From assembly GCF_019879105.1 (NCBI RefSeq), contig NZ_CP082247.1:496001-560000 (forward strand): a stretch of 64,000 nucleotides of DNA, written 5' to 3'. The notes beneath the pieces were generated by a model. The model saw nothing but the letters and a program-made list of their open reading frames with translations, did no database searches and was not told where the DNA came from. The DNA comes from Natrinema sp. SYSU A 869 (GTDB taxonomy: Archaea > Halobacteriota > Halobacteria > Halobacteriales > Natrialbaceae). The position numbers and the translations under genes were made by a program. Shown piece after piece: positions 21,532-29,912 of this stretch (position 1 is its first letter; every line of letters begins with the position of its first letter).

Positions 21532-22910
21532 TATGAGAATCTGCGGCTGAAGCTACCACGCCGATTACGATAGCTGTTCGGGTGTAATAACAACTGTCTC
21601 CGCCATATTTCCCATTACCGCCCTGACCAGACCATAGGTGCTTCGCGAGAGATAACGAGAGCTGTCGCTACTGATAGGGCCAGCCGCTGGCTGAGTCGCG
21701 CCAGTCCGGCGCGACTCAGCTCACCGGTGGCGCGTACTCCTCCTCACGCGTGAGCATGTAGTAGACCGACACGAGCAGTTTGCGTGCGGTCGCAACAATC
21801 GCTATCTGATGATTCTTCCGCCGTTTTAGTCGCTCGTAAAACCCCGCGAGATACTCGTTTCCGCACGTAATCGCCGTGTTCGCACACTGCGCGAGTACCC
21901 AGCGCATCGCCGCCGATCCTTCTTTGCTAATGCCGCCACGAGTCTCGTGATCACTTGATTGGCGAACCGTCGGATTCAGTCCAGCATAGCTCACGAGTTG
22001 CTCGTGACTTGGAAACCGTTCGATTTCGCCGATCTCGGCGGTGAGCAACACCGCCGAGAACGGCCCAACGCCTGGAATCGTCTCTAGCAGCTTCGCCGCC
22101 TCGCTCTCTGTGGCGACCGCTTCGATTTTTCTATCCAACTCGGCGATCTTCTCGTCGTAGGTGTCGACCACGTCGAGATACGTCTCGACGATCACGCGAT
22201 CCGTTTCTGCCAGCGAGAGTTCCGCGAGGAACTCTCGCCCGGTCGGGCCGAACAACGCACTCCGATACTGGTTGCCGGTGCGCTTGAGGACGGCCCGGAC
22301 GCGGGATTTCACCCGCGTCCGGTCCTCGACGAGGGTCTTACGTGTACGAACGAGATCGCGTTGCTCGCGGATCTCCTTGGGCGGAACGTAGCTCTCAGCG
22401 ACGAGGTTCGCTCGGAGCAGATGCGCGAGCATCTGCGCATCGATTTTGTCCGTTTTGACACTCGCTTCGGCGATCACGCGGGTTTTCTTCGGGTTGACAA
22501 GCGTAACGTCCATGTGCTCGTCAAGCGTCTCATAGATATGCCGGTAGAAGCCGGTCGCCTCAATGGCGACGGGCGACCCGGCGAACTCGCGAGCGAACTC
22601 GTCAAGGGCGCTGTCAGTAACGCGCCGTTCGTCGAGAATCGTTCCGTTGGACGCCATGACGGCCACCTGGGAGTGACCGTCATGGCAATCCATGCCGATG
22701 TATGGAGTCTCTGACTTCATGCTTTCACCAAGGGCTGTGTCGGGTGGCGCGAGCCAGATAGGCACCTATTCGCGCTCCTAGCGCAGTCGTTCCTATCCAT
22801 GCAAGCGGGCCAGTCACCGCACCGTGTTCTATTCTGTGACACATGCTTACGGACGGCCTCAATCAGCCCCAATGTGGGTTCGCGCCGACAGGACTTAGCA
22901 GATTCTCATA
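21532..22910 (-). mobile_element. IS110 family element with subterminal inverted repeats
   Basis: A 13-bp perfect inverted repeat, TATGAGAATCTGC at 21532-21544 and GCAGATTCTCATA at 22898-22910, brackets an intact IS110 transposase with about 170-190 bp of non-coding DNA at each end. IS1111-subgroup IS110 elements carry such subterminal repeats and do not make target duplications. The exact ends cannot be fixed from one copy. Confidence 0.65.
21716..22720 (-). CDS. IS110 family transposase
   Basis: 334 residues from ATG 22720 (MKSETPYIGMDCHDGHSQVA). The N-terminal RuvC-like DEDD domain shows GMDCHDG, VAIEATGFYRHIYETL, NPKKTRVIAEASVKTDKIDA; the C-terminal Tnp domain shows LLETIPGVGPFSAVLLTAEI and the serine region YAGLNPTVRQSSDHETRGG, then GSAAMRWVLAQCANTA. 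It is complete and undamaged, unlike most transposases in this window, so it may be active. IS110 enzymes recombine DNA guided by a structured RNA made from the element's non-coding end. Confidence 0.92.
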   Translation of the reverse strand: MKSETPYIGMDCHDGHSQVAVMASNGTILDERRVTDSALDEFAREFAGSPVAIEATGFYRHIYETLDEHMDVTLVNPKKTRVIAEASVKTDKIDAQMLAHLLRANLVAESYVPPKEIREQRDLVRTRKTLVEDRTRVKSRVRAVLKRTGNQYRSALFGPTGREFLAELSLAETDRVIVETYLDVVDTYDEKIAELDRKIEAVATESEAAKLLETIPGVGPFSAVLLTAEIGEIERFPSHEQLVSYAGLNPTVRQSSDHETRGGISKEGSAAMRWVLAQCANTAITCGNEYLAGFYERLKRRKNHQIAIVATARKLLVSVYYMLTREEEYAPPVS

Positions 22911-23160: not shown

Positions 23161-23274
23161 TAGTCATCACTCGAGAACCTCGACGTCGGGATGCTCTCCA
23201 GTTGGGCCGGCGACTGCTTTCGCACGCTCGAGTTCACGCAGCTCTTGTTGGATTTGTTATTCGATCGCATCATC

Positions 23275-23504
23275 AGCACTGTCTAGATAAGAGAAACCGC
23301 AATACGGGAAGGTGATGAAGTGACGGTATCGGCTGTAAATCACCATATTGGATCTGATATAGGGGACTCTGTTCCACGAGGAGCGACAATTCGGCTGCGT
23401 CAGCAAATTTCTCATAAGCAGTGACAATATCAGATCTCACCGGTAATGCTGTAGCAGGCTCTGAAACACTGCTATACGTCGAGACCGAGTAACTAGACAG
23501 TGCC
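23275..23504. mobile_element. 230-bp element with IS6-type ends, MITE candidate
   Basis: The left end AGCACTGTCTAG and the right end CTAGACAGTGCC are the inverted terminal repeats of the IS6 family seen four times in this window (GGCACTGTCTAGTTAG), with 11 bp identical. The 200 bp between carry no transposase. It sits inside the MBL-fold pseudogene: the hydrolase reading frame is recognisable up to NREEKLAK and then enters this segment. Confidence 0.5.
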
Positions 23505-23974
23505 TTAGCAAGCTTCTCCTCCCTATTCTGATAAATATCGGCTGGAAGTAGGAATGTCTGTCCCTGATAACTGATCTTCAAGACAAGAGATGTTCGGTCG
23601 ATATTGCTCGAGGGGTCGGCTGGCAAGGGGGTTGAGAACCGTGATGTCGTAGCTATCTCCGTCTGGCGAGAGTTTATTCCCGTCGCCTCGCTCGATCCGA
23701 GTGGTGCTGATATCGTTGGCCGAGATAGCATCTCAAGCTCTTCTTAGGAGGTAGCATCGTTATTGATACCGGAGTGGTACACTTCTCCAACTGACACCTC
23801 ATTAATGATTGCATCTGCACTACCGATGTGGTCAGTGTGGTTATGCGTGAGAACCATCGAATCGATCTCATTGACGCCTTCGCTGTCCAAGACGTCCAGA
23901 ATTTGGTCACCCGCTCCTCGAGGACAGCGATAAGCACAGGTAATTCCGTTTTGGAGTGGTGAGTCAATTCTCAT
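23505..23974 (-). pseudogene. ComEC/Rec2-like MBL-fold hydrolase remnant
   Basis: Starts at ATG 23974 (MRIDSPLQNGITCAYRCPRG) and has the metallo-beta-lactamase metal motif VLTHNHTDHIGSADAIINEV, typical of the secreted or membrane-linked ComEC-type hydrolase family. The frame breaks after VYHSGINNDATS (about 23750) and resumes as DRTSLVLKISYQGQTFLLPA, the conserved C-terminal beta strands, ending at the 230-bp MITE-like insertion. The start overlaps the end of a small membrane protein gene by 11 bp, so the two were probably cotranscribed. Confidence 0.7.
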
Positions 23975-24161: not shown

Positions 24162-24223
24162 ATCGAACTCAAGAATCTCTTAGATAATAAATAGATGTAT
24201 CATCCGGATCATCAGTAGCGTTT

Positions 24224-24530
24224 ATATCGGAAAATTCGCACGTGTACTTACCAAGGACGCCGTAATATGGCCGTGTGAGAATAGTATTTTATTCGCCAAC
24301 AGTCTCAACCTTGGATAGTAACTATCGACTCGTTCGTCAAACGCTTCAACGATATCTTCAGCGATTGATTCGACCTGACTGTCGGTTTCGATAGCGTCGG
24401 GAATCTCCTCGGTCAGGTGTATTTAGATAGCGAACTCAGCCTTGTCAATTCCCCGCTCTCAGCCTCATTTTCAATTTCGAGGAGATCCTCCTCGGCCTAT
24501 TTAAGAGCCTGATTGCGGACGGCTAAACAC
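24224..24530 (-). pseudogene. Remnant of an acidic protein gene
   Basis: The minus strand reads AEEDLLEIENEAESGELDKA, a stop, then EIPDAIETDSQVESIAEDIV and EAFDERVDSYYPRLRLLANK in one frame with an internal stop. Acidic, helix-rich and clearly protein-like, but without a start. Family not recognised. Confidence 0.4.
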
Positions 24531-24547
24531 GCCCTTCATTTGGAAAA

Positions 24548-24557
24548 ATATAAATAT
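24548..24557 (+). promoter_or_regulatory. TATA box of the halocin-like gene
   Basis: ATATAAATAT about 24-33 nt before ATG 24581, in an AT-rich stretch. The spacing fits a leaderless transcript. Confidence 0.55.
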
Positions 24558-24580
24558 GTAGTATACTTTGAATTAATAGC

Positions 24581-25434
24581 ATGGCAAAAGATAGTTCGGA
24601 TTTTACTCGTCGAGATGTCCTCAAACGACCGCTGTTGGTGGCGCAGGCTCTGCGGGACTGTTCGGTTTAAGCCAGTCTGTAGCTTCGGCGAAACAGAATC
24701 AAGCTTCGGCTCACCACAGCCAGTCCGGAAACGGAATCGAGGACGACCTGCTCGTCGAAAACGGGAAGATAGTGGGCTACGACGACGGCGAAGTCCAGAT
24801 GAACGAGCCCAAGATCCTCGAGGGAGGTCAGGCCCGGAAGGAGGCCAAGGGTGCAATGCGCAACGAGGAGGTCCGGGCACTGCGAGACTGGTTCAAACAG
24901 CAGCAGCTGCGTCCGAACGTGAAGGGCGCCGCCGCGTTCGAGATCAGCTACGAAGGAGAGTACGAGGAGGTAAATCAGGGCAACCCGGTTATCGTCTTAA
25001 TTCCGTACGCTCCGCGCGGAAAGGACGAGAAACGGGGCGGCCTCCTGCAGTTGTACATGGTCGACGACGGGCCCCAGCGCGTCGTGGGCGGCGTCACGGC
25101 CGTTTACAGCGAAGAGTTCGATGAAGGTGTCCACGCGAAGTACCTCGGACTGGACGGCGACGACGTGATCGTCACCCACGAAGAGACGCTCGCCAGCTCA
25201 TTCTCCGCCTCTTGGAGCGTCAAGTGCGCGACCTGTGAAATTACCTTCGAGGCCATCTGCACCGGTACGTACGGCACAGTGGGGGTAGCTGGCTGCAGTA
25301 CGATCTGCGCAGCGAGCGGTCCGGGCTGGCTGGCATGTACTCCCGTCTGCAGTACGATGGTGGTCGTCGGAACGTATTACATGTGTAACTTCGGAGCCAG
25401 CTACTTTTGCAGTAACATGGTCGACTTCTGTTGA
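24581..25434 (+). CDS. Halocin C8-like bacteriocin precursor (one-base frameshift in the signal peptide)
   Basis: Begins MAKDSSDFTRRDVLK, a Tat signal with the twin Arg, and continues in another frame as TAVGGAGSAGLFGLSQSVAS. One A appears lost from CTCAAAACG (about 24623). Repaired, the precursor is about 284 residues, essentially the size of the halocin C8 precursor (283). The last 72 residues (25216-25431) are the Cys-rich peptide: ten Cys, with C-x2-C-x7-C at its start (KCATCEITFEAIC), Gly/Ala/Thr-rich and ending FCSNMVDFC. In halocin C8 the Tat-exported precursor is cleaved to a 76-residue, ten-Cys antimicrobial peptide, while the N-terminal part gives immunity. The middle of this protein (residues about 60-210) is acidic and soluble, as in that immunity region. 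If the frameshift is real, export is lost although immunity could still be made from internal starts. Confidence 0.8.
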
Positions 25435-25670
25435 TCGGGTACGAAGACGCGTCCACGTACGCGGGTCTGGAAGCTCTCCTCCGCTGACACGCAGCAGGGG
25501 ACAGCTTCGCAGTACTCGGAGCGGTCTACACCTCCGATCTGCCCTCGGGGAGGCAAGAATCGTCACGATGCGGCGCTCGATACCCCGAGCCACGGGTACT
25601 CCCGGTGCGAGAGAAGCAGCGGCGGCCGCACGGCGAGGGGACGTTCTCGCAGTACGTGAAAACAGAAACA

Positions 25671-25680
25671 TTATAATTTA
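25671..25680 (+). promoter_or_regulatory. TATA box of the 73-residue membrane protein
   Basis: TTATAATTTA, 19-28 nt before ATG 25699, in an AT-rich island between GC-rich sequence. Confidence 0.5.
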
Positions 25681-25698
25681 CCTCTGTAATTCACTTAT

Positions 25699-25920
25699 AT
25701 GGAAGTCAATTTTAGTAATATAGTAAGTATATTATTTGATAATATAGCACGGGCAACGGTTATTGCGGCGTTTGGATCGACGGGCGCCTTGATCTACTTT
25801 GAGGAGGTTTCGAGCCAAGAGACTCCAGAAATGGTCAGTAGTGCTGTCATCGTCTTTTCGCTCGTGGGATTCTTGGCAGGAATCCTGTCCATCGTCTTCT
25901 TTATACACTCTGTTCGATAG
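25699..25920 (+). CDS. Small membrane protein beside the halocin gene
   Basis: 73 residues with two hydrophobic helices (ARATVIAAFGSTGALIYFE and SSAVIVFSLVGFLAGILSIV) joined by a short acidic loop (EEVSSQETPEM). It has its own TATA box and sits 264 bp after the halocin-like gene on the same strand, separate from any other gene. Bacteriocin loci often carry such proteins as immunity or export helpers; that role is a guess from position. The family is not recognised. Confidence 0.6.
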   Translation: MEVNFSNIVSILFDNIARATVIAAFGSTGALIYFEEVSSQETPEMVSSAVIVFSLVGFLAGILSIVFFIHSVR

Positions 25921-26414: not shown

Positions 26415-27758
26415 CTACTGAACCGAAAGCAACGATTTGAGATCGAGGTGTCCGGCGCCCCGGTACTGCAAGGGGTCGATCTCCCTTGCAGTCTCTCGTA
26501 GACGGAGGCGAGCCGCCTCGGGACCGAGCGCAGGGTTCTTGCTCCGGAGGAGCGCAAGGGCACCTGTGACCTGGGGCGCAGCGAGACTTGTCCCGTCTGC
26601 CCAACCGTACTCCGGGACGCGCTTTTCCGACGAGCTGTTCGGTCGGTACGAGAACGTCGTGCTGAGAATACCGTCGTACCGTGCGCCAGGGTGACGGTTG
26701 AGAGCGGTTTCGTCGATCTCGCCGCCCGGGGCGCTGACAGTCACGGTTTCCCGCCCGTAGTTCGTGTATGTCGTTGGAGTGTATGCCGGTTCGTCGATCG
26801 CAGAGGATGGATCGACCGAATAGCCTCCGACAGCCTCGTTCGAGGATGTTGCTGGCCAATTGTATCCCGCAGGCGCTGTCGCGCTGACGGTGACGAACGA
26901 CTCCACGTTGGTGGGGAGAGCGAACGGAGGTGCCTCGGGCGACAGCCGCTTGGCGTCGTTCCCCGCCGAGCAGACGACGATCGTCCCCTCCGTTTCAGCG
27001 CGTGCAGCGACCCTCTGTAGTGCGTCCAGAAGGACGTCATGGTCCGACTCAGGCGTGTACGGGTACCAGTTCTGGCTCACGTTGACGACGTCGCAGCCGT
27101 CTTCGACGGCGTATGCGAGCGCAGCGAGGAGGTCCCCTGCGAGGACGCCATGTCGAGTGGTGACACGATAGTCCCGCACCTCCACACCAGGAGCGACGCC
27201 CGTGACGCCACCGTCTCGCCCGGTACCAGCGATGATCCCTGTGACGTGCGTCGCGTGCGAACGACCTCCGATCGGTGTGTGATCCCCGGCGTCTTCCGTC
27301 ACGTTTCGCGATCTCCCACCGTTCAGAGCGGAAGCGAGATCCGGATGGTTATCGATGACTCCCGTTCCGACGATACCGATGGTGACGCCGTCTCCACGCG
27401 TCTCTTCGTGGCACTCTCGGACGGACTGGGACTGCTTGTCCCACTGGAGTTCGTAGAGATCCTCTCCGGAGACGTCGAAAGTTCCCGTGACGCGCGTGCG
27501 TATCTCAGGGCCGAAAGACGACCTGCTATCTCTGAACGTAGCGGAGGTCTCGACCAGTTCGGGAGCCACGTAACCAACGACGAGGTCGAGTTCTGGGAGG
27601 TCGTGAACGATATCGATTCGTTCCCGGGTCCGTTCGGAGATGTCGCTCGCGTCGATCACGTATCGTCGAGGGTCGCTAGTCTCCGTTCGTCGCTGACAGC
27701 CTGCGAGCAGTGCCGTACTGAGGCACCCCGATCGTCGTAGGAAGCTCCGTCTGTCCAT
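26415..27758 (-). CDS. Tat-exported subtilase (S8) lipoprotein lacking the catalytic Asp
   Basis: 447 residues from ATG 27758. The leader MDRRSFLRRSGCLSTALLAG ends in a lipobox (LLAGC), so it is Tat-exported and lipid-anchored. A propeptide-like region (about 25-130) precedes the S8 domain. The His motif (GRSHATHVTGIIAGTG), oxyanion Asn (VVCSAGND) and Ser motif (WADGTSLAAPQVTGALALLR) are present, but the first motif reads GIVGTGVIDNHPD where the family has VIDTGV or VIDSGV: the catalytic Asp is Gly. The frame is otherwise undamaged. It may be an inactive homologue kept for binding or a recent point mutant. The first nine residues of the longer frame (from 27785) precede the Tat motif and are unlikely. 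The gene is convergent with the halocin-side genes. Confidence 0.85.
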   Translation of the reverse strand: MDRRSFLRRSGCLSTALLAGCQRRTETSDPRRYVIDASDISERTRERIDIVHDLPELDLVVGYVAPELVETSATFRDSRSSFGPEIRTRVTGTFDVSGEDLYELQWDKQSQSVRECHEETRGDGVTIGIVGTGVIDNHPDLASALNGGRSRNVTEDAGDHTPIGGRSHATHVTGIIAGTGRDGGVTGVAPGVEVRDYRVTTRHGVLAGDLLAALAYAVEDGCDVVNVSQNWYPYTPESDHDVLLDALQRVAARAETEGTIVVCSAGNDAKRLSPEAPPFALPTNVESFVTVSATAPAGYNWPATSSNEAVGGYSVDPSSAIDEPAYTPTTYTNYGRETVTVSAPGGEIDETALNRHPGARYDGILSTTFSYRPNSSSEKRVPEYGWADGTSLAAPQVTGALALLRSKNPALGPEAARLRLRETAREIDPLQYRGAGHLDLKSLLSVQ

Positions 27759-27799
27759 AAGACAGTTACCAGAGTGTAAATACATAAGTTCAACAGTTT

Positions 27800-28857
27800 C
27801 CCCAAGCGAACGATGCGTCGGAACTTGTCAGGGTGTTGCTCGAGAGCGTTCAACTCGGTCGCGCCCGCGCCGTGTTGCTGTTCCCACTCGGTGATTCGCC
27901 GGTTGTACGCGACGCCGCCGGTACCGGTCGCCGAACTCGTTTCGATCGGCTTTCTCGGGAGTTCCAGCGCCTCAATTTGTTCCGTGGTGACCGCCAGCCG
28001 TTCGATCACGACGCGTTGCTCGAGATCGCCGCGCTGGTGGAGCCACGCGAGTTTTCCCGCCATGTTCGCCGGCATACCGTACCCCTTCACGTCGAAATCG
28101 GCGAGATACAGGATTACGGCCGGCTTCCCCGCCGCTCCGATTCGTTGGGCGAGCTCATTCGCGACGGTCTGGGAGAGATCGACCTCGCCTTCGACCACGA
28201 CGTTACAGCCACAGTCCGCAGCCAACCCGCCCTCGTCGCGGATGTAATCGGGAGCGTCTTCTCGCTCCAGAGTTCGATGTGATACGGCGACTGCCGGGCC
28301 TTGTCGAACGGCAGTTGCTCGCGAGCGCTCGAGGCGACATGGTCTGCGGCCCACTCCGAGTAGCGCGTCTCGTCGCGGTCGAACACGGACTCAGCGCGGG
28401 CCTCTGGATGGGGAATCTGTGGTGTCGAAACCCCAGTGGGAGCGGCAATCGACTCGGGGTCGGGTTCGAGCGTGTGGGTGCCGTACTCGGTGACCGTCCT
28501 AGTATGGGCGCGCTTGTCGATGATCCCGTCCAACGGGATGTAGCCAAGAATCCGAGCGAGGACGGCACACTCCTTGGGGTAGCCGTAACACCGCTGGGTG
28601 TTGTCGTAAGTATCCCACGAGCAGTCCGTCGGCGGCTGCACGTCTTCGTCGGACATGTAGACCGTGTAGTGAACGCCGCGGACGTGGATGCAGTCGCTCT
28701 CGCGCTGGCCGCGGGCAGTGATCGTGTAGTAGTTCGGTCGCTTGTCGAGTTCGCCTTTCTCGACGAGACCCTTGTCGACGACCTCGTTGAGGTTGGGATA
28801 CAGCCGGGCGTGATAGATCTCGGAGACAGCAACCGCGAGCGCGTCGAGGGCTTTCAC
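27800..28857 (-). pseudogene. Chimera of PadR-like regulator end and TOPRIM-like viral/plasmid protein
   Basis: The first 60 residues (ARLYPNLNEVVDKGLVEKGE, then PNYYTITARGQRE) are the C-terminal part of a PadR-like winged helix. Without a stop the frame continues into an unrelated protein: VRGVHYTVYMSDEDVQ, AVLARILGYIPLDGIIDKRA, SEWAADHVASSAREQLPFDK, SPYHIELWSEKT. Near 28255 it shifts frame to DYIRDEGGLAADCGCNVVVE, PAVILYLADFDVKGYGMPAN (a TOPRIM-like strand with an acidic pair) and RKPIETSSATGTGGVAYNRR, and is cut at about 27800. The second part resembles a protein common in haloarchaeal viruses and plasmids. Both ends are truncated, so this is a recombination product. Confidence 0.65.
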
Positions 28858-28932: not shown

Positions 28933-29886
28933 TTAGTACGCGAGTTGGTCGACGGTCGTCCCGGCTGCCGTCTGCACCGTCGCCGTGTCACCGTCGTCGT
29001 TCCAGATTTCGGTCCCGTAGCCCATGTAGCGGTCGTCGGCGTCGTTGGTCCCACTACCAGTGTGGACGTACACCGAGTCACCAGCGCCGAGCGTGAACTC
29101 TGCAAACGTGTGGCTATAACCCGCCTCGTCGGCGAGCGTGAACCCGTCGAGGTCGACCGAACTACTGCCGGTGTTGGTGATCTTCACACGCTCATCGTTG
29201 AGGGAACTCGCTTCCGCGTTGACCCAATCGATAGTGAGCGCACTTGCGTCCCCACCCGACGACCCGTCATCGCCAGAGCCGTCGTCGTTCGGCGTCCGAC
29301 ACGACCAGGCGTTTCGCTCGGCGGACTGAGCCGCCGATTCGGCGCTGTAGAACGAATCGCTTTGGGAGAACGTACTGTCGTAGACCCGGGCGTGGCCCCG
29401 CTCCACGAGACCGTAGTTGAAGTTCGAACCGTCGACCTGTACGTACGCGAGCAGACGGCCGTAGTCACCGCGTCGGTCCGCCTGGCTGTCGAATTGCAGC
29501 GTGACCGTTTGGCCAGCGAGTTGGTCAGTCGCGTACGCACTCGCGTTCTCACCCGCGGCTTGCAGGCACTCACGGCCCGCCTGCGTGTCCGGCACGCCCT
29601 CGAATTCGCCGGGCGAGACCGACCCGTACGTTTCCGGCGTGTCGACACCCAGTAGTCGAACGGTATCGGTCGACCCGTTCTGGTATTCGATGTCGATTGT
29701 GTCGCCGTCGACGACGTTCGTCACCGTCACCGTCGTCGACTCGCTGATCGAGGTCGTCGTCTCGACCGACGGCGTCGTGACTGCCCCCGCCGAGGCCGTC
29801 ATCCCAGTTGCAACGAGCGCTACGACCATGACCGCTGTCAGGAGTTTACGTCGAACCACACTCACTGACCCGACTGCAATCGTCAT
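28933..29886 (-). CDS. Secreted thermonuclease (SNase) with C-terminal lamin-tail domain
   Basis: 317 residues from ATG 29886. A basic start (SVSVVRRKL) and hydrophobic helix (LTAVMVVALVATGMTASAGA) form a signal peptide. Residues about 50-190 are a staphylococcal-nuclease domain: VTNVVDGDTIDIEYQNGS, VRLLGVDTPETYG (catalytic Arg, Asp, Glu) and DYGRLLAYVQVDG (second catalytic Arg). An acidic Gly/Ser/Asp linker leads to a lamin-tail domain (INWVNAEA-type start TIDWVNAEASSLNDERVKIT, NTGSSSVDLDGFTLADEAGY), a beta sandwich that binds surfaces or DNA. The product is probably an extracellular nuclease that digests DNA for nutrient or defence. The frame is intact. A TATA-like stretch lies at 29913-29920. 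Confidence 0.9.
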   Translation of the reverse strand: MTIAVGSVSVVRRKLLTAVMVVALVATGMTASAGAVTTPSVETTTSISESTTVTVTNVVDGDTIDIEYQNGSTDTVRLLGVDTPETYGSVSPGEFEGVPDTQAGRECLQAAGENASAYATDQLAGQTVTLQFDSQADRRGDYGRLLAYVQVDGSNFNYGLVERGHARVYDSTFSQSDSFYSAESAAQSAERNAWSCRTPNDDGSGDDGSSGGDASALTIDWVNAEASSLNDERVKITNTGSSSVDLDGFTLADEAGYSHTFAEFTLGAGDSVYVHTGSGTNDADDRYMGYGTEIWNDDGDTATVQTAAGTTVDQLAY

Positions 29887-29912
29887 CAACTTGTGTAATA
29901 CCTATATGTACC

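Follow-up and report, generated by a model that had tools for sequence, protein, structure and literature searches.

A probably silenced gene of the halocin C8 sister branch in Natrinema sp. SYSU A 869

A gene of Natrinema sp. SYSU A 869 is likely to be the precursor gene of a halocin C8-like peptide from the sister clade of halocin C8, in which the reading frame of the Tat signal has been lost. We refer to this clade as type II, a label given in this analysis. The gene lies in a stretch of 64,000 nucleotides (here called the window, G000:C1:496001-560000) of a 5.67 Mb genome present in three contigs. It is probably a divergent, silenced member of the sister branch and not a halocin C8. In itself it is an ordinary broken gene; the interest lies in its relatives, with their disulfide scheme, their membrane partner and the lesions in their signals. 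The following features were assigned:

24547-24558, plus strand: AT-rich and TATA-like, about 23-34 nt before the ATG; candidate leaderless promoter (sequence reading)
24581-24625, plus strand: start codon and first stretch of the Tat signal, MAKDSSDFTRRDVLK (ATG frame; layout common to most relatives)
24620-24630, plus strand: point of frame loss, where a continuous frame would need one more base (sequence reading)
24625-25215, plus strand: remaining part of the Tat signal (TTAVGGAGSAGLFGL), then the type II middle domain, NPVIVLIPY...GGLLQL (profile match)
24772-25434, plus strand: ORF from the first in-frame GTG, without signal (ORF list)
25216-25434, plus strand: C-terminal 72-residue domain with ten cysteines, the predicted mature peptide, and stop (TIGR04449 1-69/69; type II cysteine spacing)
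25669-25680, plus strand: AT-rich and TATA-like, before the two-helix gene (sequence reading)
25699-25920, plus strand: 73 amino acid protein, two membrane helices predicted; candidate for an immunity role (ORF, helix prediction)

The precursor gene opens at the ATG at 24581 on the plus strand. This frame reads M-A-K-D-S-S-D-F-T-R-R-D-V-L-K up to 24625, including the Tat signal motif TRRDVLK, and ends after 29 codons at a stop (24668-24670). The frame switch sits between CTC-AAA-CGA (24620-24628) and ACG-ACC-GCT (24625-24633). The second frame, one position earlier, carries TTAVGGAGSAGLFGLSQSVASA followed by the open precursor body; from the GCT at 24631 it comprises 267 open codons and closes with TGA (25432-25434). 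The lesion amounts to a simple loss of frame, no other stop being present over these 267 codons, and with the missing base restored the continuous precursor has 284 codons. The GC content of the open part is 74% at the third and 45% at the second codon position, which shows that it is real coding sequence. The only open product of the second frame that begins at a common start codon is the GTG ORF (24772-25434). The last 72 residues contain ten cysteines with the spacing 2-7-11-3-9-3-11-7-6. A preliminary description of this DNA had reported a Tat leader with a one-base lesion, a restored length of about 284 residues, and ten cysteines in the last 72 residues with a C-x2-C-x7-C opening; each of these was recovered here, signal and lesion at 24581-24630.

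A one-base lesion of this kind might be an assembly error, the gene then being an intact and exported type II precursor. The gene is otherwise open over 267 codons, as an intact gene would be, two frame breaks were found among the ABC-transporter domains of the same genome, and three genes close by (23273-23974, 24190-24540 and 27656-28857) seem to have broken frames too. However, these two splits are the only ones among about 80 strong ABC domains (about 34 kb of coding sequence); such domains are rarely split and the assembly is thus not rich in frame-break errors. Even if both splits were errors, a random error in an 850 nt gene would be a ~5% event. The lesion site has a run of three A only and no long single-base run, the neighbouring genes are plainly decayed, and relatives are damaged in this part of the gene as well. 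We therefore regard an assembly error as possible but doubtful. The two split ABC-transporter ATPase domains are located at G000:C1:70620-71098 and G000:C3:213940-214411.

The preliminary description had also placed the C terminus in the wider halocin C8-like family, and this placement is supported by a domain match, a profile score and a tree. The NCBIfam model for the halocin C8-like domain, TIGR04449, matches the C terminus of the window protein over its full length (1-69/69; 18.5-21.7 bits, E 0.002-0.003), but the score stays under the curated cut-off of 24 bits. By the NCBI rule the window gene is not a member of TIGR04449, only a homologue of its members. A profile was built from 14 type II relatives with the window gene left out, and the window precursor scored 74.5 bits against it. 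The best of 1000 shuffles with the core cysteine positions fixed reached 29.2 bits, and 1000 free shuffles gave no more than 14.3 bits. The middle of the window precursor alone scored 50.1 bits against the type II profile, where 1000 shuffles reached at most 7.2 bits. These scores above the shuffles, the middle included, show that homology spans the whole precursor and goes beyond a mere count of cysteines. In the alignment, the middle common to the window gene and its nearest loci has the motifs NPxxxxxPF and GGxL.

TIGR04449 domains occur in 48 of 391 Halobacteria genomes, and about 80 family loci were gathered from TIGR04449-positive genomes and others. Close relatives of the whole window protein were not found in GTDB contigs, viral contigs or plasmids; a whole-protein search of 125 family genomes gave a single weak match, and an alignment-based scan of genome contigs returned one relative. 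A maximum-likelihood tree of 59 family members splits with support of 100/100 into type I (35 rows), which includes halocin C8, and type II (24 rows), which includes the window gene. Within type II the window gene groups with L050, L064 and L139 (96/93). Its branch (2.03) is longer than any other end branch in the clade, with a best identity of 24%, and its exact position inside type II is thus unsure.

Halocin C8 (ProC8/HalC8, from Natrinema and relatives; L074, L075, L077 and L084) and the window gene share a C-terminal domain of ten cysteines that opens with C-x2-C-x7-C, and in each of them the match to TIGR04449 covers the whole model. Halocin C8 has a Tat-exported precursor of about 283 residues, and the architecture of the window gene is alike. 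They differ in clade, the window gene lying outside the C8 clade in the 100/100 split, and in the cysteine spacing after the opening. In most type I rows the spacing is 2-7-3-7-(11 to 14)-7-..., and in halocin C8 it is 2-7-3-7-13-7-8-8-5, which the window precursor does not have. Type II rows with all ten cysteines show 2-7-11-3-(9 to 13)-3-11-7-5/6, except for L045/L093 and L064/L139. The cysteine pattern had been described as halocin C8-like. This holds for the opening, while the remaining spacing is that of a different clade. The same description took the acidic middle for the HalI immunity part, which we could not substantiate: hmmsearch with a C8-clade middle profile gave no match to the window middle, and an hhalign profile-profile comparison of the type II and C8-clade middles yielded a probability of 2%. 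Against the type II middle, the window middle scored 49 bits. With the other type II precursors (L050, L064, L069, L045, L080, L092 and others) the window gene shares the clade, the NPxxxxxPF and GGxL middle (49-50 bits) and the ten cysteines with mirror-like spacing, but it differs from them in that its Tat signal is not in frame with the body. The sequence supports descent from type II precursors and does not support a working precursor for the window gene.

Losses of cysteines in the family come as nested pairs. Cys1 and Cys10 are jointly absent in one type II clade (eight rows) and Cys5 and Cys6 in another (four rows). In type I, Cys3 and Cys8 are jointly absent in L052/L132 and L061, and a six-cysteine variant that lacks cysteines 3, 4, 7 and 8 (L065, L068 and L138) has no detected Tat signal. 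Single losses occur only in copies that also lack the signal (L048, L049 and L131). All paired losses obey the rule i + j = 11, which leaves the pair 2-9 by elimination. Furthermore, the type II spacing is nearly a mirror image (7/7, 11/11, 3/3), and its steps of 4, 8 and 12 residues suit one face of two antiparallel helices. We predict a nested disulfide ladder with the five rungs 1-10, 2-9, 3-8, 4-7 and 5-6 in an antiparallel hairpin. This hairpin is read from the sequence, since two structure predictions, made with two rows, were of low confidence (pLDDT 35 and 44); the core model was all helical. Among solved structures, none was found with a sequence like that of the window protein or of halocin C8. 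We know of no disulfide mapping for halocin C8. The losses in pairs yield a concrete connectivity that can be tested cheaply, for a family present in about one eighth of the sampled haloarchaeal genomes. In L061 (G183:C1, 3061-5220) the halocin C8-like domain ends an open frame of 719 codons, which makes it far longer than the usual precursors.

The two-helix ORF at 25699-25920 starts 264 nt downstream of the window precursor gene. Such a protein with its own TATA box beside the halocin-like gene had been pointed out in the preliminary description; the ORF and a TATA-like stretch (25669-25680) are both present, and the association turns out to be real across the family. We scanned for ORFs of up to 140 residues with at least two hydrophobic helices on the same strand and no more than 300 nt downstream. 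They were found at 27 of 61 non-redundant family loci, compared with 6 of 245 other long ORFs of the same loci, a control that may include false genes (Fisher p 2e-16). In a stricter scan the numbers were 22/62 and 5/191. In most relatives the membrane ORF lies within about 140 nt, so that the window copy is at the far edge; L050 and L064, which are close to the window gene, have no such ORF within the scanned range. The window two-helix protein has no close relative in the 125 family genomes and shows a weak match to DUF7333 (E 0.025). The small membrane proteins differ between loci, and ten of them compared with Pfam gave sub-threshold matches only, with no family common to them. Immunity proteins often differ between loci. 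A small membrane protein gene beside the peptide gene is the arrangement of bacteriocin-type immunity, and on the basis of this association the window two-helix protein is a candidate immunity protein.

For halocin C8, a single gene is responsible for both production and immunity (reviewed in PMC11509114). Many other family loci have a small membrane ORF directly downstream; its absence from the C8 loci fits the published single-gene immunity (PMC11509114). Given the strong link to a membrane gene elsewhere in the family, halocin C8 with its single-gene immunity may be an exception, and the link names specific gene pairs to be tested.

In intact relatives, a putatively leaderless mRNA would be translated into a precursor, which in the sequences has 250-350 residues and a Tat signal, and the folded precursor would be exported through the Tat pathway. 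By comparison with halocin C8, an extracellular protease would then free the C-terminal 70-75 residues. The freed peptide, presumably held by the nested disulfides predicted above, would inhibit other haloarchaea, as expected from its family, and the producer might be protected by the downstream small membrane protein and not by the middle of the precursor. A different haloarchaeal antagonistic precursor protein, HmHapP (HFX_0892), is secreted in an inactive form and activated by halolysins (PMC12893001). Activation there is by an extracellular serine protease, and in the window a subtilase gene lies 1 kb away, but the active part of HmHapP is its N-terminus with two helices, and the paper does not mention cysteines (PMC12893001). 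In the window strain, the break in the Tat signal should stop export, and the membrane protein may remain as immunity. Judged from the sequence, the strain is probably a non-producer that does not secrete the peptide now.

We infer an antimicrobial activity of the window peptide from its family. The antimicrobial label derives from halocin C8 and its close kin, and not every family gene is followed by a membrane gene. The family member could instead be a secreted cysteine-rich protein with a role other than antagonism, for example in adhesion, signalling or redox reactions. Yet the family is patchily present (48/391 genomes), highly divergent, frequently decayed and associated with small membrane proteins, all of which are typical of bacteriocin-like loci. 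A role other than antagonism is therefore rather unlikely in our view, and the precursor of an antimicrobial peptide is the preferred reading. We know of no type II member that has been tested for activity.

The Tat signal of the window gene is not the only one in the family that is damaged. Several relatives carry independent lesions limited to this signal, each with an intact body. L034 has a stop inside the Tat signal, which is intact in its relative L039. In L036 (G107:C2) the signal is split by an 82 nt insert about 300 nt upstream of the intact body; over the coding stretch compared, L036 is otherwise identical to L085. The ends of this insert are near-perfectly inverted (TAGTAGCCG.TGAAA), and it looks like a miniature transposable element. 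L053 has lost the frame in the Tat signal with its body intact, and in L082 the 5′ end is replaced. Altogether, seven lesions of the point or insert type were found in genes whose core is intact, and five of them lie in the signal, which makes up about 19% of the length open to the search (binomial p ~0.004); this statistic is suggestive, with small numbers, a pattern picked after seeing the data and a search by the C-terminal core that is blind to lesions within the core. L056 and L093 (G319:C1, about 8 kb apart) have near-identical Tat signal DNA and divergent bodies, and both are frame-broken. Their 5′ ends may have recombined.

The clustering of lesions in the signal could mean that selection keeps the body and removes export, so that a product without Tat signal, made from the GTG at 24772 or by re-initiation, stays inside the cell and serves immunity only. 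That halocin C8 combines peptide and immunity in one gene (PMC11509114) would agree with this. The lesions are few and were chosen post hoc, however, in a search that cannot show lesions of the core. Several copies lack the entire N-terminal part and the window middle is not detectably HalI, and we consider such an immunity-only product improbable. It is highly improbable that low amounts of the full precursor arise by programmed -1 frameshifting at CTC-AAA-CGA: the frame after the junction is indeed the -1 frame, open and with no start codon close by, but there is no slippery heptamer (C-TCA-AAC), and a frame change at the junction is seen in no relative, the signal being in one frame in most.

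For the family as a whole, we put forward only tentatively that both branches have the same architecture, an antiparallel hairpin held by five nested disulfides, that most loci outside the C8 clade depend on a separate small membrane immunity protein, and that repeated damage to the Tat signal silences export but spares the remainder of the locus, which produces immune non-producers. Very few archaeal antimicrobial peptides are understood. Recurrent damage to export signals would make the dynamics of archaeal producers and non-producers testable from genomes.

The surroundings of the window gene contain an IS110 transposase at 21716-22765 and, on the minus strand, a decayed gene of the metallo-beta-lactamase fold (PF00753) with frame breaks at 23273-23974 and a frame-broken gene of unknown family at about 24190-24540. 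The subtilase gene (PF00082, E 2.6e-39; 26415-27785, minus strand) is convergent with the halocin-like locus, and its product has a start like that of a Tat lipoprotein (MDRRSFLRRSGCLSTALLAGC). As a dedicated maturation protease it was rejected, since it is not conserved near other family genes. A gene for a PadR-domain regulator (27656-28857, minus strand) appears to shift frame around 28114-28354 and is probably frame-broken. Further along the window, at 28933-29889 on the minus strand, a protein with a secreted-type staphylococcal nuclease and a lamin tail domain is encoded, and DNA with 94-95% identity to this stretch is present on Haloterrigena plasmids.
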